Made by a program: the position numbers and the translations under genes | DNA from: Acanthamoeba castellanii str. Neff | Taxonomy: Eukaryota; Discosea; Longamoebia; Acanthamoebidae | Assembly (NCBI RefSeq): GCF_000313135.1 | Contig: NW_004457702.1 | Coordinates: 186,001-250,000 of the forward strand | Reading direction: 5' to 3' | DNA length: 64,000 nt | The notes under the pieces: model-generated | What the model saw: the letters and a program-made list of their open reading frames with translations, nothing else | What the model was told of the DNA's origin: nothing | Database searches by the model: none | Shown here: positions 26,605 through 38,529 of the stretch, in pieces | Position numbering within the stretch: position 1 is the stretch's first letter | Layout: each line of letters starts with the position of its first letter

Positions 26605-28068
26605 TCACTGGAGGAGACAGCTGCGCTGGCCGCGGTCGGCAAGGAGATCGAGGGGCTCGTAGACGGCGAAGTTGGCGGCCAGCGCCATGGTGGCGTCCAC
26701 GTTGTCGAACGTCTTGGCCGAACACTCGATGAAGGCCACGGCGCCCATCTCGAACGCCATCACCTGGGCCTGTTCGTGCGACACCACGCAACCCTGACGT
26801 TGTCGTACGTCGACGTTGTCGACATTGTGCTGCTCTTCTTCGCCGGCCGCTTCTTCGGCTACGGCCGCGCCACTGGCGTTGCTTTCCTCATTGATGACGC
26901 CATCGGAGACCAGGTCCTTCTTGCAGCCCACCAAAATGAACGGCTCGTTGGGGCAGTGGCGGCGCACCTCGGGCAGCCATCGCGACCTGAGATTCTGGAG
27001 GCTCTGCGGGTCTACGACAGAGTAGCACAAGAGAAAGATGTCGGCGCCGCCGTAGCCGAGCGGTCGCAGCTGGTCGTAGTCCGCAGACCCCGCTGATCAT
27101 TCGCAGATTGGGGGTGTTAAGAGTGTCCCTCGGCGCAGACCGTGGTGAGTGGGTGGGTGGACGAACCTGTGTCCCAAGGCACGACCACCACCTTCTTCCC
27201 TTGGTCGATGGCCACATCACGCTGGTTGAAGCTGATGCAGGTCGGCAGGTAGTCTGGCCCGCCGAATGCGCCGTCAATTATACGAACAACACTCAGCATC
27301 ACCACAGGTGCAGACCAGCAGCCTCCTTACCGCCAATGAATGTGTTCCACGACCAGGCGTAGAGCAGCGCTGTCTTGCCCACGCCGCTGTCGCCCACAGC
27401 GACCACCTTCGCCCCTGGCCCAGTGCGCTGGCCGTCGGCCCACACAACACAGACACACCCGGTTAGGCCGTAGCCATAAGAGAGAGAGAGAGAGAGTACA
27501 GAGAGGGAAGAGAGTGTAGTACTCGGAACCGAGGGCGGGCGGTGGTGGAGAGGCGTATTCGATTCTCCGCTGTGTAGCGCTCCCGGGCCTTGTTGAGCTT
27601 GTCGACCCTGTCCCGCTCCCACTCCAACGTGATCTTGATGGCCTCGATCACCTCCGCCCTGCACCATCCATGTGTGTGGTGTGCGTGGTGGTGTGTGCGT
27701 GGTCAACAATTGGGCGGTGTGGGTGCAGGAGCGTCCTTACCGAAGATCGATTGAGTTGATGGTGTCGGGCGGCCACACTTCGCAGCACGTCTCACGGTAG
27801 AACCCCTGCCAGAGCCTTGCAGGTCTGTTTAGTCCACGAATGCAAAAAATCAGATGCACAGATGATGGAAAGAGTACAAAGGATCGCTGGAAATGGCACG
27901 CCAGCTGCGGCAAACGCCACCTACGCGGCACAGATCGGCTGCATCAAGGTAGGCGAAGATGCGCCACCCCAGCTCGGGCGGCATAAGGTCCACAACCTCC
28001 TCTCGCTCTCGCTCTGCCGCAGTTTCTCCCTTTCCCTTCACTTCATCTCTCATGCTCTCCTTTTCCAT
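26605..28068 (-). CDS. F-box domain fused to a Rho-like small GTPase
   Basis: ATG at 28068. Exon 1 and 2 encode an F-box (LMPPELGWRIFAYLDAADL to VCRSWRAISSDPLPARLW). A third exon adds a charged helix (EVIEAIKITLEWERDRVDKL). Then come the GTPase motifs: P-loop GDSGVGKT, switch I DYLPTCIS, switch II WDTAGSADYDQLRPL, LVGCKKDL, and ECSAKT. It ends RSCLLQ-stop, a CaaX-type prenylation box. All joins keep phase (for example DTG|AG across the switch II intron). The total is about 360 residues against about 190 for a plain Rho. The glutamine normally at position 61 is Ser and position 12 is Ser. An acidic insert of about 35 residues lies between CKKD and CSAK. The protein could tie a membrane-anchored Rho module to an SCF ubiquitin ligase (inference). 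Confidence 0.8.
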
Positions 28069-28180
28069 CACTGCTGACTGCCCTACTCGCTACCAAGGTT
28101 GCTCTTGGCTCCTTTTTGTCGTTGAAAGCAGCCTTCAAAGAATACGTTGAAGGAAGGAGCTTCTCTTGTGCACGTCAGCA

Positions 28181-28485: not shown

Positions 28486-31400
28486 ATGATGGCGAGCAAT
28501 GGAGGGGTCCCCGGCGGAGGGGAAGGGCAGGCGCCGAAGAGGCGCTCGCTGCAGCCCTCGAAGGACCCACTGAGGACGGGGGCGATTTTTCGGATTAAAG
28601 ACCCCTCGGCGATGCGATCGCCCGTGCCCATCACGGTATTGCCTTCGCATCTGAAGAGACCGTCACCAGTTCCCTCTCCATCTACTTCGGCAAACGCTGC
28701 TGCCGGTGTCGCATCTTCGCCATACGTCCCCAGATCAACACCGTTCGCCACACCCAGCACGCCCAGCAGCAAATCGGCCATGAGCAGTAACGGCACAGAG
28801 TCTGCGGCTTCTGCATCGCTGGCGACTGCCACAACGCCATCACCTTTGGCCACAATCTCGGATGAGGAATTGGCAAGCCAATTTGATGCCCTTTATCACC
28901 GACAAAGCCCCACGCCAGCTCTCCTTCGCGTACGCTCCAGCTCTCCCCTTTGCGACCGATTATCATCATCCGATTATTGATTATTTTATTTTGTTTTTAT
29001 TTTGTTTTTGTTTGCTGATTTATTGGTATGCACACAGGCTGGGGGACGAGGGAAGACAGTGCGGTACAGCCCGGTGCCCGCGGCGCTGATCCGCCAACGC
29101 ACCACCACGACCGTGGTCGCGGTACAGTCGCCCGCGCGCAAGCAACAGCAGGACGACGAGCGCCAGCAGCGCGAAAGCGAAGAGACCGCCAGGCGCGAAA
29201 GCGAAGCGGCGGCGGACGAGGCACGAAAGACGAGGGAAGCACAAGAGGAGGAAGAGGAGAACAGGAGGAGGCAGGAGCGAGAGCAACAACAGCAACGGGA
29301 GGAGGAGGAGCGACGCGAGCAGCGCGAGGAGAAGGAGCGACGCGAGCGAGAGGAGGAGGAGGAGAAGCAGCAGCAGGAGCTGGCGCGCAAGGAGAAGGAG
29401 AGGCTGGCAGAGCGGGAACGACAGCGGCTGGAGGCCGAGGAGCTGGCGCGCAAGCTGAAAGCACAGAAGAAGGAGAACGCACGACTGGAGAAGGAGGAAA
29501 GAGAGAAGCGCGAAAAAGAGGAAAGAGAGAAGCGCGAAAGGGAAGAACGAGAGAAGCGCGAGAAGGAGGAAAGAGAGAAGCGCGAAAGGGAGGAACGAGA
29601 GGCGGAGGAAAAGAAACAGACGGAGCGGGAGCAGGAGAAGAAGCGACTGGACAGGGAGCGACAGGAAAACGAGGAAAGAGAGAAGCGCGAAAGGGAGAAG
29701 CGCGAAAGGGAGGAACGTGAAGCGGACGAAGAGAGGGAGCGGAAACGGCGGCAGATGGAGGCCGACGAGGAGGCGGCACGACAGCAGCAGCAACTACAGC
29801 TTAAGCTGGAGAACGAACGGAGGGAGAGGGAGCGTCAGGAGAGGGAGCGACAAGAGGAGCTGGAGCGAAGGGAGCGAGCGCAGCGCGAACAGCAGGAGAA
29901 GGAGGAGAAGGAGGAGAAGGAGCGGCAAAAGCGGCGGAAGGAGGAGGAGGAGCGACTGGAGAGAGAAAGACGCGAGGAGAAGGAGCGCAGGGAAAGGGAG
30001 CAACGGGAAAAAGAAGAGGAGAAGGAGAAGGAGCGCAAACGGCAGGCGGCAGAGGAAGAAAAACGATTAGAGAAGGAGCGGCGAGAGAGGGAGGAGCAGC
30101 AAGAGAGGGAGGAGCGACGCCTGCGCGAGGAGGAAGAGGCCCGCGAGAAACGAGAGGCGGAGGAGGCCGAAAGACAACGGGCAGCAAAAGAGGAGGTGAG
30201 GAAGAAGAAGAAGGAAGAAGAAGAAGAAGAAAGAAGAAGAGAGGAAGAAAAGGAAAGGAGCAGCGAACCAAAGGCGAAGGCGCCTGTGGCCGAGAAGGGT
30301 TCGGCGGAGGATCGAGCCAAGGTAGGAGTGTGTCGCACGCACGCACGCACGAACCCCACTCTTTGCCTATTTTGACTCTAACGCATTTGTTTGTGTACAC
30401 GCTCGCCAGCTGGTGCCGGTGGTGACCGCTAAGCCGGCCAGGGTGCCGGTTGTGCTGCAGCGCTGGTATCTCAAGGTACATAGGGAGACAATGTGGGCTT
30501 GTTTTAATTGGCGTGTGCGTGTGCGATCGTGCTGTGTGTGCGGTGTGTGGTCGTGCATGGGCGCTGACTGTTAGCGCGTGTGTTATGTTGTCTTCTTCTC
30601 GTCCACAGCCATCCCGCGTGCGCGAGAATTCGGTCTTGGCAGTCGAAGGAACGCTCTTCAAGCCGGGCGCCGAATCCCACGGCCGAATCTGGCACTCCTC
30701 CAACATCCGCCGGCGCGCCGACGACAACCAGCACCTGCTCGAGGTACCAAACCTGCGCGTTTTCAGTAGACTCAGCACATGGTTTGACACACACCACACA
30801 CACCACACACACCACACACACACCACACACACCACACACACACCACACACACCACACACACCACACACACCACACACACCACACACACCACACACACCAC
30901 ACACACACGGTTGCTTTGTCAGACCTCGAGCGGCAATCTCTACCTGCTCGAGGGTCCGCGGCACCCGAACCCGCCCGTCGACGTCGAACCGTTCGGCTAC
31001 GCGCCGGACATCGTGGCCCAGTTCGCCGATGGCTTCCCCACGAACTGGCGCGAGCTGGTCAAGCAGTCGGGCCTGAACATGGACGCCGACGAGGCGCTCC
31101 ACGCGCGGCTGCAGGGCATGACCTGCGTGCAGCTCCGCAAGGAGCTCGCCCAGCGCAACCGCCGGGACACCGCGCGCAGCAACAAGGCCGAGCTCGTCGC
31201 GCGGCTCAAGCTCGCCATCCAGAAGGAGGAGGGCCGTCGCGCGCGCACCGCCGAGGACGAGCTGCTCGACATGTCGCCCGAGCAGCTCCACGACCAGCTC
31301 GAGGCCCGCGGCCTCACCTCCCAGGTACTGCTCTCCCCCCGTGGTGGTGGCAGGTGGTCATGGTGGCGCACAGCGCAGAGGCGTCTAAAGTGGTGGTGGC

Positions 31401-34400
31401 GGCCTAACAACTGATGATGCGATTGCGATTGTGTGGGATCAGGTCGGGCTCGATCAGCGGGAGGTGGTGGCGGCGATCCTCAAGTACGACGCGGAGAAGC
31501 TCGCCAAGCAGGAGGCCCTCGAGAAGAAGCTGAAGGTTGAGGAGGAGGACGAAGACGAAGAAGACAGCGAAAGCGAGGACGAAGAAGAAAAAGAAAAAGA
31601 AGAAGAGGAGGAGGAAACGAAAGAAAACAACGAAGAGACGATGGACGCCGACGAAACAACCAAAGAGGCAGCAGACAATGAGGAGGAGGAGGAGGAAGCG
31701 CCGGGCGAAGAGGAGGCGGGCGTGACAGTGGACGCCGGAAAGGAAGAGGAAAAGGAGGAAGAAAAGGAGGGGGAGGTAGCGGAAGAAGAACGGGAGCACG
31801 CGCCACTGGAAGCAACGCCCGCGCAGCCGGCTGCCAAGGAGCTCGCGGAAGAAGATGACGCGACTCGACATTTTGATGAGCGTCAAGAAGCAGGCCTAGA
31901 GCAGGAAGCGGAGGAAGAGGAAGCGGCGAAGGGGACGCCGGAGGCGCACGCCACGGAGGAGAACGTAACGGTGGAAGCGTTAGAAAAGGCTGAGGAGGAG
32001 GAGGAGCTCAAGCGTAGGGAGGACGACACGGAGCACGCCAAGCCGAACGGAAGTGTGGACCAGGTCAGCGAGGACCAGGGGCACGAAGGCGAGCAGCCGG
32101 CGGCAGACACCGACGGAACGGCGCAGCTGCACGACGACGACGCCGGAGAAGATGAAGAAGAAGAGGGCGAAGCGGAGGAGGCGAGAACGGAAAAGAAGAG
32201 TGAGAAAGGAAAGGCGACTGTGGTGGAGAACGAGGAGGAAGAGGAGGAGATAGAAGTGGAGGTGCCTCCGAAGTACGCGTACCGCTCGATCACCGACGAC
32301 TCGCTTATATTGGGCGACGTCGCCGAGCAGCACGAAGAAGAAGACGAAGCCAGAGACGAAGAAAAGAACGAAGCGGTGGACGATGACAAAGAGGAAGAGG
32401 AAGAGGACGAAGAAGAAAAAGAAGATGAGGAGTTCAACGAAGAGGAGGAGGAGGAGGAGGACGACAAAAAGAAGAGGAGAGGACCACCAGCAAAGAGTGA
32501 CAAGGGCGGCAGCAGCGGGAAGGGAGCGAGCGGGGCGTCGCGGAAGCGGAAGGCGGACGAGAGCCTGCTCCTGGCCAAGCGCACATCGACCACCCCGGGG
32601 TCATCGTCGGCCAAGCGCGGACGCATGAGCTGGGGCACCGCACTGAGCAACCTCGTCGTGTCCTCCTTCAAGACCCCCTCGCCCGTCTCCCATCCGCTCA
32701 TGTCCCCCAGGTTCGTATTATACCTCACTCGACCCGCAACCGCGCGCACCGTGTGTGTCGCGTGTCGCGTGTCGTGTGTCGTGTGTGCTGACGGCGGCGT
32801 CGCGTCTAGGGTGGCGGAGCATGCGGTGGGCACGACGAGAAGCGGGCGGAAGGTGATCGCGCCGCTGGCCTTCTGGCGTAACCAAGCCCCCGTCCGCGTG
32901 TACGCCTCCGCCCCCCATACATTCCTTTTGGCCACCCCAATGTGTTCACACACCGCACACTGCACACTGCACACGCACACGACACACAGTCACGGGCTGC
33001 TGGTGGACATTGCCGAAGACGCGGCGTCGCTGGTGGCCAACCCCAAGCAGCGGCTGGACCTGCGGCTCTCGCCGGGCTACGAGCAGCCGCTGCTGCGCAA
33101 GCGCCGACAAAGCCGCGGCGAGGAGGAGGAGGAGGAGGGCGAGGAGGGTGGTCTTGAGCCGGCGAAGCGGAGGCGAGTCGCCCAGAGTAAGGGCGAGCAG
33201 GAGTCGACCGACGTGAGCGAGGAGGAGGAGGAGGACGATTCGGACGATGGCGACGGTGGCGACGCGGTGGGCGATGATGGCGACTATAACGACGAAGAAG
33301 AAGAAGAAGAAGGAAGAGAAGACGAGAAGGCGGAAGAGGAGGAAGAGCGAACGACGTTGGTGCGACGGGGCACGCGGAAGCAGGTGACGGCGGCCACCGC
33401 GGCCGCCAAGTTTGCCAAGTTGCGGGCCAACAAGAATGCGGCGGGGGCGGCGGCGGCGAGATCGGCCAAGGCCAAGGCGGCGGCGGCCACGGGCAGGCGC
33501 GGAGGGGGAGGGGCGAAGACCAAGCCAAAGCCCACGGCCAAGGGCAAGGAGAAGGTCCTCACCGAAGACGACTACGACTACGACGACGAGAGGAAGACGA
33601 AGAAGACGAAGAAGAAGACGACGACGACGACGAAGAGAGCGAAAGGCCAAGGCAGAGGTCAATCAGAAGAAGAAGAGGGGCCGACCGCCCAGGCTAGCGC
33701 CAACGCGCGACCCAGAGGAGGACTATGTAGATGACGACGAGGAGGACGAAGAGGAGGAGTTGGAAACGAGGACGAAGATCGGTAAGAGGAAGCAGACGGC
33801 CGGCCGGGGCAGGGGCCGGGGCAGACCGTCCAAGCGGGTGCGATCGTCTTCACCCGAAGAGGAAAGCGACGACGACGAAGAAGAGGAGGAGGAAGAGGAA
33901 GAGGAGGTGAAGGGGAGGGGCGGGAGGAAGAAACCGACGGTGACGGCCAAGAAAAAGCCGACCAAGAAACAAGAGGAAAAGAAGAAGAAGACGACGACGA
34001 AAACAACGAAGAAGACGACGGCGAAGAAAAAGGACGACGAAGAGGTGGACGAAGAGGAGGAAACGAGGCCCGAGGAGGGCGTAGATACGAGCGTGTGGAC
34101 AAAGAAGGTACGCCAGGCTTTGCTTGATGGCTAAGCTCAGCTCAGCTCAGCTCATGACGACTCACTCCTCGCTATCACGACAGCAAATCGAGTCCCTGCG
34201 CGCCGCACAGCGAGCGGTGCCGCCCACCCACCGACTGTTCTGGGAGGAGGTCGCCCGACGGGTAAGCCCCCCCCCCGTCGCGTCACATTCATTTCGTTCT
34301 TTGCTCTTTGTTTTCCCCTGACCTGGTGCGTGGTTGCAGGTGAGCGAGGCCGGCGGAGTAAAGCGGACCAGCGCTGAGTGCCTAGAAAAGTTCCACGAAA

Positions 34401-35715
34401 TCAGCGCACGTATGCTCCGTGTCGCGTCGTGTCATGTCGTGCGTGTCGCGTCGCGTCGTGTGTCGTGTCGTGCGTGTGCATGGTGTGTGTGTGTTGTCTT
34501 CCTTGCGCTAATGTGGACACTCGTGGCTCGCGGTCCAGCCAAAACACGAACGCGAGCGACCGCCGCGGGCAAGGGCAAGAAGGCTGGGAAATCCGCCGAG
34601 GACGACTCTCCCGCGACGCTCGAAGGCTTCAACATGGGCACCAACAAGCGCAGGCGAAAGATGCGCCAGCTTCTCGAGAAGGTGAGTCCACTTGCGCGCG
34701 TGTGTTGTGTGGTGTATCATGCGAGCATCTTCTGACGTTGTATATGCAGGCGGAGACGGGATACACGGACGACGTGTTTCAGGCCAAGGGCAACGATACG
34801 AGCATGAGTTTTATAAACATCAGCGAAGACGAATGGCAGCCCACCAAGACCATCGTACGCTGCTCACCGCTCGTCGTCGTCGTCGTCATCATCATTATGG
34901 CCTCGAGCCCAGGCACTGACCGTGCATCGTTCGTAATTTTTTTGTCGCGCAGGCGACCCCGTCAAAGTCGCCGGTGGGCCAACTGCAAAGCGGGCTGCTG
35001 GAGAAAAGGGAACGAGACAAGTTTGACGCCTACATCGGACGATTCGCACGCAAACAGCGACGGTTCGTGTCCTTCCAACCACACACGCGCCCAACCACCG
35101 CACACGCACAGTTCTTATACTTCGTGTGTCGTGTGTCGTGTCGTGTCCGACATGCCAGACCGAAGAGACGGGGCAAAGCTGGAGGCGCCAGCGCCAGCGA
35201 AGACGAGGACAGCGAGGAGGCCAAGGACAGCGACCAGGATGCGGAGGAGGCAGCAGCGCCGGCGGCGGCGGCTCAGGATGCCGGTACACGCCCCGCCCCC
35301 AAATTCAGTCCAGTCCGACATGACTGCATTTCCACCCCTGTTGTTCACCTCTGTGCGTCGTGTGTCCACAGAGGGCGATGAAGAGGTCGAGTTGAGCGAG
35401 GAGGCCAGGGTCCGGCTCCGCAATCTGCGCAACAAGGTGGTGGTGGACGAGCCCCTCAACAAGCGGCAGAAGCGCATGCACCAGATGCAGGAGGTCGCCG
35501 GAAAGGGTAGACCTACTCCCCCCCCCAAACGCTGTTCTTCTTCGCACGTGTGCGGTCGCTGACTCGCGCGTGCGCGTGCGTGTGCGGTCTGAGCAGTGAA
35601 AGAGCTGTTGACGACCGAGACCCGCAAGGACGACGTCTTCAACGACGACGAGTCGATACTCGTCAACAACAACAGCACCAACAGTCTCGACGCCACCGCC
35701 GACGCCAGCGACTGA
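28486..35715 (+). CDS. KNL2: KNL2/M18BP1 homologue: SANTA, SAP-like, CENP-C-like motif, SANT
   Basis: Main exons: 28486-28929, 29038-30321, 30410-30475, 30609-30743, 30923-31324, 31443-32710, 32810-32899, 32990-about 34107, 34184-34261, 34340-34409, 34539-34681, 34750-34854, 34953-35062, 35159-35283, 35372-35506, 35597-35715. Order: Ser/Pro-rich start; about 400 residues of Glu/Arg/Lys helix; SANTA domain (VVLQRWYLK, LAVEGTLF, GRIWHSSNIRRR, TSSGNLYLLEGP, FADGFPTNWRELV); two SAP-like segments (MTCVQLRKELAQRN to NKAELVARL; SPEQLHDQLEARGL); acidic region; CENP-C-like RSGRKVIAPLAFWRNQ; basic region with AT-hook-like RGRP; SANT (WTKKQIESLRAAQ to FWEEVARR); and FNMGTNKRRRKMRQLLEK. In animals and plants KNL2/M18BP1 helps load CENP-A at centromeres. 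The frame changes between about 33555 and 33660, see findings. Confidence 0.87.
29497..29592 (+). repeat. Four tandem 24-bp coding units in the KNL2-like gene
   Basis: Units 29497-29520, 29521-29544, 29545-29568 and 29569-29592 each encode an eight-residue block of the form E[RK]EKREKE/EREKRERE. Similar partial units recur near 29680-29720. The unit length keeps the frame, and the product is predicted to be a charged single helix. Expansion or contraction by unit slippage is likely. Confidence 0.85.
30787..30908. repeat. Intronic CACACACAC/CACACACC repeat in the SANTA-coding region
   Basis: About 120 bp of CACACAC interrupted every 9-10 bases by an extra C. It fills nearly the whole intron 30744-30922 that splits the SANTA domain. 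No coding frame is needed across it. Confidence 0.9.
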
Positions 35716-35794: not shown

Positions 35795-38529
35795 CTATTC
35801 TCGCATATCGCGCAGCCGCGAGCGCTGCCGCTTGGCGGGCTGGCCGGCGCCCTCGTCGCCCGGCTCTTCCCCGCGGGTCGCGGCCGCCGCTGCGGCGGCG
35901 TTGGCGCTGGCGCGGGCCTGCTTGCGCATGTGGACGCCGATCTCGCCGAGGAGGCCCAGGGCGCGCTTGCCCAGCTCGTCCTCGCGGCCCGGCCGGTAGG
36001 CCTCCTCCAGGTGCGCGCCGTCCATGAGGAGCCGCTCCTCCATGTGGACCTCTCGCAGCCGTCGCTCGGCGAACAGCGGCGCCTGGTCTCGGAAATGCAA
36101 CGACCTTGATAAAAAAATAAATGACTGAGTGCGTGTCGTGCGTGTCGTGTTGTGTGCGTAGTGCGTGTGTCGTGCGAAGTGGAAGAGAGTACTTGGTGAA
36201 AGTGTTGGCGCCGTAGGGCTGGACGGCTTGCGAGTGCACCTGGCCGTGGGCGTCCCATCGCACGATCTGCACGTAGCCGTCACCCGAGTCGGCCACCACG
36301 CGGGCCTTCTTGATATCGACCGTACCCTGGACTGTTCATTCCCCTGAGTCAGCTCCACAAAGAAAGAGAACTAAAGCGAAAGCGAAAACGAAAACGAAAG
36401 CGAAAGCGGGAGCAAAGCGGCGTACTGGTGTGGAGGACGTCGGGTCCGCCGCTGAGGTCAAACTCCGCACGGCCGCGGATCAGTCGCTGCTGGTGGCTCC
36501 ACTCGGGATCCATTCGCCCCGCGCCCCACTTTAGGTCGCGCCCCGCGTTCTCCACGTCATCGAGGAGGCGGCCGGGCGTGAGGCCCAGTTCATCGAGGGA
36601 GATGGCTTGGCCGTCGCCGTCGCCGTCTTCGCGATCGCCGCGGCGGGTGTAGAAGCGGTGGGCGATGGCGCCAGGCTCGGCCAGGTGGTGGCGGAATGCG
36701 AAGAAGGCGAGCGGGGCGGCGATGGAGTGGCCGCTCATGGCGAGGTCCCACGAACGGAGGAGCGCCATGGCCCGCACCAACATCGGGCGGTCCCTCCGCA
36801 GCTGCTCCTTCCCCACCTCCTCAACTCTTTTCCATTCACACGACACACGACACACGACACACGACACACGACACACGACACACGACACACGACACACGAC
36901 ACACGTGTGAGAAACGACGACCAGCGCGCAAAGCAGAGCAAGGAGTACGAACTGTTGGTCGTAGGCGGCGAGGGAGTGGTTGACGAGGTAGGCCATCAGC
37001 GACCCGCGCGCGTAGGTCTCGTCGAACTTGATCCGCACGAACTGGTCCGCATCCAATCCACCCTTGTCACCGGCACTGTCGACACTGTCGGTGTCGTTGC
37101 TGTTGTTGTCGACGAGGGCGGCGCTGAGCAGTTCGAGGGCGCGCAGGGCGCGGTTGGTCATGCGGCGCTCAATCATGCCCGACACGGCGGGCGCGCGGTC
37201 GGCGTCGAAGTCGGCCGGCGACGGGTTGTTGTCGCGGCCGCCCGACGTGACCCGGAACGGCGACGAGTTGCAGTTCTGTACGAAGCCCGACGACGGGTTG
37301 AGCACGCGGGGCAGCCGGTCCCACGGCACATACGTCGGAGGCCACACCGTACTCGACGTGTTCCCTATTGGACCGATTCTCAGCCTCAGTCAGTGTGTGC
37401 GGTGTGGCGTGTGCGGCGTGTGCGGTGTGGCGTGTGCGGTGTGAGCGGTGTGCGGTGGTGAGTGCAACGTGCCTGGTACGGGGGCGGACCAGTCGTGGTC
37501 GGCGGACGACCGGTTCTGGGGAAGCAGCGCGTTGTAGCCGTAGAAGATGTTGCCTGGCGGTGGTTAAGGTGGCGGGGCTGGTCAGCGTTTGTTGGTTAAG
37601 GTGGCGGGGTTGGTCAGCGTATGTTGGTTAAGTGTGGCAGTGGTGCCTTGGTGGTCGGCGTAGACAGCGTTGAGGAGGGGCATGGTCTGCCGGCCGAGGG
37701 CGGCCGACCACTCCTCGAAGGTGGTGGCCTTGGTCATCGCCAGCCACTGCTCCAGCTGATCGATCCTCTCGCTGCCGCAGTACCGAATCGCGTACGTGCC
37801 CTGGTGGTGTGCGCGGTGTGTGCGATTGTGGTGAGGTTGTGTGCGGTGGTTTGTATGTGATCGTGCGTGTGCGGTGGTGCGTGTGCGGTGGTGCGTGTGC
37901 GGTGGTGCTATGTCGCAGCGTGCGTACCCGAGGGTTCTGAATGACTGGCGCGTTGTGTGACGGCGACCACAGCACCTCGCGTTCCACCTCCCAGCTCCAC
38001 CGCCCGAATATGTTCAACTGAGCCAATCACCAGAGGAGGATTAACCACAACCAATCCAATTCTTTTGCAAAAGATAAATATAAAAGAAATAGGAATTGAA
38101 TTGCGTACCGACATGGGGACGATCTTGCTCTCCAGTGTGTGCCATTCGCCGTCGAAGAGGTAGCGGAGGCGGTGGTCCTTGTCCATCGTCAGTTCGTAGA
38201 CGTCGACCACATCGGGGCTGTTTACCGTGTGCCCCCACCCGAGCTGAACGAACGGCCAAAGAGAGAGGAAGAGTTGTGAGTCATCAATGCAGTGGCGCGC
38301 GCGCATGTGTGTGTGCGTGTGTCGTGTGTGTCGTGTGTAAGTGTGTGTCGTGTTGTGTTGTGTCGTTCGTTACCTGGCGGTTGTGGCCCGACAGCGGAAT
38401 GGGACAGCCCGGAAAGACTCCACCCACAAAATTCCAGCCTTCTTCGCTGTGCAGGTGCGCCTCATACCTAGACACGCACGCATACGCGACACGACACACG
38501 ACACCACACACCACGCACGACACACCACA

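Follow-up and report, generated by a model that had tools for sequence, protein, structure and literature searches.

The window analysed here is a stretch of 64,000 nucleotides from the genome of Acanthamoeba castellanii str. Neff (contig NW_004457702.1, positions 186,001 to 250,000), in which we studied a gene predicted to encode a KNL2/M18BP1 protein. The gene model comprises 16 GT-AG introns, and under the predicted splicing its sole stop codon is terminal. The elements of the predicted protein succeed one another in the following order: charged helix, SANTA, SAP, CENP-C-like motif, RGRP motifs, SANT and post-SANT block (Table 1). Judged from its sequence, the protein is a well supported orthologue of KNL2/M18BP1, the identity already put forward in an initial annotation of this DNA; the SANTA match, two matches to Mis18BP1 and the motif matches reported below all agree with it. 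Very probably, this amoeba protein helps to bring new CENP-A to existing centromeres, with a CENP-C-like (CENPC-k) motif for docking, the SAP, RGRP and SANT elements for holding DNA, SANTA for a protein partner and the helix for tethering.

Table 1. Features of the KNL2/M18BP1 gene, in coordinates of the window
Feature	Position	Strand	Residues	Basis or remark
KNL2/M18BP1 coding gene, whole	28486..35715	+	1859 residues	17-exon model
Charged single-alpha-helix-like segment	29131..30261	+	180-556 (377 residues)	composition, charge pairs, model
SANTA domain	30449..31054	+	590-687	PF09133; over three exons (30410-30475, 30609-30743, 30923-31324)
SAP domain	31109..31216	+	706-741	PF02037, above cut-off
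Second SAP-like segment, unsupported as SAP	31247..31484	+		no SAP match at E<=10; intron 31325-31442 inside
Strongly acidic linker	31524..32486	+	805-1125	composition count; net charge -113
CENP-C-like (CENPC-k) motif	32829..32996	+	1207-1232	PDB search, shuffles; intron 32900-32989 inside
Join of uncertain status: putative intron poor in T, or else coding sequence carrying assembly indels	33555..33666	+		CGA triplet array 33563-33633
Two RGRP AT-hook-like motifs	33676..33828 (33676-33687, 33817-33828)	+	1422, 1469	
SANT domain	34090..34408	+	1560-1614	Mis18BP1 match; two introns inside
Post-SANT block, GTxKRxxxMRxxLE...DDxF	34616..34782	+	1641-1673	in 114-residue 9f5w_M match; one intron inside
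Second C-terminal block resembling Mis18BP1	34840..35060	+	1693-1733	shuffles; one intron inside
Possible internal repeat of post-SANT block, NKRxxxM...DDVF	35452..35667	+	1803-1844	weak; one intron inside

SANTA, SANT and the CENP-C-like motif

The SANTA domain, placed at 30.4-31.07 kb by the initial annotation, was recovered at about this place. When the full-length protein was scanned against Pfam, PF09133 matched it at 2e-11 with 44.6 bits (cut-off 21) over profile positions 1-91 of 92; scanned alone, the region reached 1.8e-13. In the PDB it matched Mis18-binding protein 1 (9r6h_A, 1.2e-7), which we take to be the human protein. Both published SANTA signatures (PMC9210943; here and below the literature is cited from excerpts of the papers) are found in nearly exact form, VxLxRW for the published VxLxDW and GYxxxxxxxFxxGFPxxW for GFxxxxxxxFxxGFPxxW. 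A six-frame search of the whole genome (38.4 Mb, 250 contigs) with the Pfam SANTA family gave no match and its controls were silent too, a null result that is expected because the domain is split over exons.

The SANT domain and the conserved block that follows it (GTxKR...M...LE...DDxF) are likewise present as first described: together they match Mis18-binding protein 1 in the PDB (9f5w_M) at 8.9e-6 over 114 residues. This chain is human, 52 of 53 letters being identical to a human segment. The generic Pfam Myb models remained under their cut-offs (22.5 for a cut-off of 27, 17.3 for a cut-off of 21.7, and Myb_DNA-bind_4, at 1.5e-4, also below cut-off), and SANT matched PDB entry 1wgx at 0.09. 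Further downstream, a second block resembles Mis18BP1, with a score of 34 against the 9f5w chain for a shuffle mean of 18.2; this score is reached by 8 of 5000 shuffles. A PDB search with the post-SANT tail did not match Mis18BP1 and returned one viral match (1.4), attributable to chance. The internal repeat of the post-SANT block near the C-terminus is only suggestive, its score being reached by 13 of 2000 shuffles. Matches to light-harvesting proteins were discarded as chance products, the profile used being short and built with the query in it.

The CENP-C-like motif, also announced by the initial annotation, was compared with 177635 distinct PDB sequences. Only two matched at E<=10: Mif2 (0.53) and 7y7i_K (1.1), the latter being the CENPC-like region of chicken KNL2 in complex with a CENP-A nucleosome (PMC13294675). 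Both are of the expected kind, and none of 5000 shuffles reached the alignment scores of the motif. The window motif reads TRSGR, as the chicken KNL2 peptide does, and that of grass delta-KNL2 is RRLRSGKV/I (PMC9210943); the CENP-C motifs compared read instead RRTKR, RRSNR, RKSTR and RRSKR. Because of this RSGR signature, and of the company of SANTA and SANT, we assign the motif to the KNL2 type. RGRP motifs, expected from the initial annotation, were found as well, two in number; we take them to be AT-hook-like.

SAP segment and charged helix

Two SAP-like segments had been proposed next to SANTA, of which only the first is supported. The first exceeds the PF02037 cut-off of 23.9 in three separate cuts, with 27.1 bits in 49 residues, 25.7 in 117 residues and 24.6 in exon 5. 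For the second, no match to SAP was obtained at E<=10; HMMER filters, however, discard most weak matches. A different explanation of the first segment is plausible, if on balance doubtful: it would be unrelated to centromere DNA, and would consist of a protein-binding helix pair or of a chance helical match. Several observations point that way. The score is barely over the cut-off, and the Pfam scan of the full-length protein does not list SAP at E<=1, perhaps owing to the biased composition of this protein; the second copy is without support; the usual glycine loop is not seen when the segment is set by eye against the consensus; a PDB search for relatives of the segment found none; and an AlphaFold model of exon 5 made without alignment is poor (mean predicted local distance difference test, pLDDT, of 67.1), with no visible SAP fold. 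For a SAP domain speak the three scores above the Pfam cut-off, the composition-matched shuffles of the 117-residue segment, none of which (0 of 7) matches SAP, and the basic character of the region (net charge +5 across residues 698-745). Searched against the amoeba's own genome, exon 5 finds itself and one weak match (0.19).

The long charged helix of the initial annotation is borne out by single-alpha-helix statistics and by a helical model. The segment contains no Gly and a single Pro, for 36% K/R and 40% D/E. Opposite-charge pairs at i/i+4 number 172, compared with 108 +- 7.5 in 1000 shuffles, and those at i/i+3 show no excess (99, compared with 108.5). An AlphaFold model of residues 173-559, made without alignment, shows one helix of 159 residues and one of 211, with a mean pLDDT of 84.8 and a predicted template modelling score of 0.26, a confidence that is not to be overread on repetitive charged sequence. 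Such features characterise a single alpha-helix (ER/K) domain, which would be monomeric. A dimeric coiled coil pairing two KNL2 molecules would likewise fit the length of the segment, its near lack of Gly and Pro and its abundance of E, K, R and Q, which many predicted coiled coils share. We consider such pairing unlikely: hydrophobic residues make up only 11% of the segment (14 Leu, no Ile and 1 Val in 377), the i/i+4 excess is strong, and the same charge pattern in chicken INCENP turned out to be a single helix (PMC4571873). At the 0.15 nm per residue used for a single helix in that work, a helix of 377 residues would measure about 56 nm, for about 32 nm in the 213-residue helix of chicken INCENP, which was proposed to be a flexible leash (PMC4571873).

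Gene model and centromere genes elsewhere in the genome

At one exon join, frame continuity depends on a putative intron of 112 nucleotides being spliced. This GT-AG intron is made of 5% T and 72% purine, and the T content of the other 15 introns of the gene ranges from 10 to 47%. The same DNA may instead be coding and carry assembly indels, because it contains a CGA triplet array and translates as acidic protein in a third frame. No named domain is affected. The frame shifts at 33.55-33.67 kb and the T-poor bridging intron could also mean that two adjacent genes have been wrongly joined, one coding for SANTA, SAP and the CENP-C-like motif (28.5-33.6 kb) and the other for a SANT protein (33.6-35.7 kb). 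We give this little credit: the splice scores of the intron lie inside the range of the 15 others (donor 4.7, range 1.4 to 11.6; acceptor 1.4, range -1.5 to 7.3), the reading frames are open on either side, the CGA array makes assembly indels plausible, and SANTA and SANT occur in one protein in vertebrates (PMC13294675). Microsatellite-like arrays, of the ACACACACC and CGTGT types, are present in introns of the gene at 30787-30908 and 34418-34492.

The genome holds other candidate centromere genes. A separate gene with a CENP-C motif lies on the same contig as the window (C15:962323-962397, - strand); its canonical motif matched at an E value of 0.0032, with 52% identity to the 7bxt CENP-C peptide. 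In the surrounding region (C15:960823-963897, - strand), the reading that follows the motif crosses one likely intron, placed by eye, and ends at a stop some 50 codons later with no cupin domain; the gene is possibly a cupin-less CENP-C. The CENP-C cupin family gave no match in the genome, nor did a segment of human MIS18A, and neither absence is thereby shown. A divergent H3 gene (C79:267404-267836) codes for a tryptophan-bearing histone whose N-terminal tail is long and whose C-terminus is altered, and which contains a RWQAQALLALQE stretch. Its two top PDB matches, among the best 60 of 173 sequences at E<=1e-10, are H3/CENP-A chimeras, and the stretch that the histone shares with them in the alignment is their CENP-A part. 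By its sequence this variant seems CENP-A-like, by a small margin. A second divergent H3 bearing tryptophan is found at C9:1204664-1205064. Of two Yippee-Mis18 matches in the genome, the stronger reads by eye as an ordinary Yippee protein, and the weaker is below cut-off and was seen only as a fragment. A profilin of Acanthamoeba matches the genome at four places, with 95% and 84% identity at the best two, and the closest PDB relatives of this profilin are named profilin IA, I and II; this agrees with an origin from Acanthamoeba or a close relative.

Several points weigh against a role of the window protein as a KNL2-type CENP-A loading factor. Searches of the protein database brought up no other amoebozoan relative for comparison: residues 1-1269, searched along with region 577-805, gave 4738 candidates, none at E<=0.001, and exon 5 gave 63 candidates and one entry, 100% identical to the window's own exon, with no relative. 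In mammals and chicken, SANTA is not needed for centromere localisation (PMC9210943). Any misjoining of the SANTA half to the SANT half could have occurred only at the uncertain join. The CENP-A chimera matches of the C79 histone are ahead of ordinary H3 by small margins, 1.6 and 0.6 bits. Neither Mis18 nor Scm3/HJURP was detected in the genome, the Scm3 family giving no match, in searches that had no positive control and where introns split genes. Finally, the two PDB matches of the CENP-C-like motif are individually weak; the CENP-C query had the other gene as its one match in all and did not list the window's motif; and this motif scores 62 against the CENP-C motif of its own genome, 52 against the chicken KNL2 peptide (only 18 residues) and 49 against Mif2. 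The score of 62, and the very presence of a CENP-C-like motif, would also suit a protein that is the amoeba's CENP-C and not its KNL2. This seems to us highly improbable: SANTA and the SANT/post-SANT region are features of Mis18BP1, and the Pfam scan of the full-length protein lists no cupin at E<=1, although the other gene with a CENP-C motif seems to be without cupin too. The canonical motif of that gene, on the same contig, largely refutes a CENP-C identity of the window protein.

The neighbours of the gene are both on the - strand of the window. Upstream, at 26605-28089, are two segments, one of Ras-family GTPase and one of F-box type, perhaps of one gene; downstream, at 36349-37389, is a segment of the penicillin-amidase family.

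Proposed mechanism and comparison with known systems

In the mechanism that we propose for the amoeba KNL2, the CENPC-k motif most likely docks on CENP-A nucleosomes and would provide specificity. SAP, the RGRP motifs and SANT would be non-specific DNA binders which keep the protein on chromatin, and SANTA would bind a protein partner, either CENP-C or another SANTA. The charged helix, monomeric and extended over about 56 nm, would be a tether that holds the extreme N-terminus off the nucleosome-bound part. In frog metaphase SANTA binds CENP-C (PMC9210943). Plant alpha-KNL2 requires the motif and, next to it, DNA-binding regions, for which bacterial DNA-binding segments can substitute; in plants, CENPC-k combined with an unrelated segment that binds DNA is targeted to centromeres (PMC11879092). 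The amoeba helix may act as a leash, by analogy with that of INCENP.

The domain order of chicken and Xenopus M18BP1 is the same as in the amoeba protein. These non-mammalian vertebrate proteins also combine SANTA, a CENP-C-like motif and SANT (PMC13294675, PMC13021935); they differ from the amoeba protein in that neither a SAP domain nor a long charged helix is mentioned in the excerpts of these papers. Human Mis18BP1, whose order is SANTA, CENP-C-binding region, SANT (PMC9210943), shares with the amoeba protein SANTA, SANT, the post-SANT GTxKRxxxM block and perhaps the next block. Unlike it, the amoeba protein has a CENP-C motif, which mammals are described as lacking (PMC9210943, PMC13021935), together with SAP and the helix. 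Plant alpha-KNL2 has SANTA, the CENPC-k motif and DNA-binding regions near this motif, and the excerpts describe plants as being without the SANT that the amoeba has (PMC11879092). The likeness to INCENP, a centromere protein with a long charged helix as single alpha-helix domain (PMC4571873), is an analogy only: the proteins are different, the helix counts 377 residues in the amoeba and 213 in chicken, and no common origin is claimed.

The initial annotation had regarded the gathering of these elements in one protein as unusual, which does not hold, M18BP1 of non-mammalian vertebrates having them (PMC13294675, PMC13021935). A CENP-C-like motif is moreover said to occur in KNL2 across a wide spectrum of eukaryotes (PMC9210943); with the vertebrate triad, the main reason for surprise therefore falls. 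The idea of an ancestral form, also suggested at first, is reasonable: the amoeba protein shares SANTA, CENP-C motif and SANT with non-mammalian vertebrates, and SANTA and the motif with plants, and the triad looks ancestral, not new, since it has already been described in the former (PMC13294675). Three features are apparently new: the triad as seen in an amoebozoan, a KNL2 with a SAP domain, and a KNL2 with a single helix of about 56 nm, for which no literature search aimed at the helix was made. In the open-licence literature we found no report of a SAP domain in KNL2/M18BP1, nor of KNL2/M18BP1 in Amoebozoa including Dictyostelium, which is weak evidence of absence. A eukaryote-wide survey of kinetochore genes mentions Acanthamoeba castellanii, and the words KNL2 and Mis18 do not occur in its main text (PMC5579357).

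That the window may reveal how this amoeba marks its centromeres is an inference: the genome contains a CENP-A-like histone and, separately, a gene with a CENP-C motif, but Mis18 and HJURP/Scm3 were not found in searches that had no positive control. We tentatively propose that a KNL2 with a tether of about 56 nm and a SAP clamp, anchored to CENP-A, could have its N-terminus span several nucleosomes, in a lineage-specific setting of the distance at which new CENP-A is placed, and that the triad was present in the ancestor of amoebozoans and animals. The helix gives a testable prediction on spacing in CENP-A loading, and KNL2 can be studied in a single genome jointly with a CENP-C candidate and a CENP-A-like histone. 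An amoebozoan protein with SANTA, CENPC-k and SANT suggests that mammals lost the motif and that plants lost SANT; alternatively to this plant loss, SANT may have joined before the split between animals and amoebae. Together, this suggests that the centromere-marking toolkit is old.

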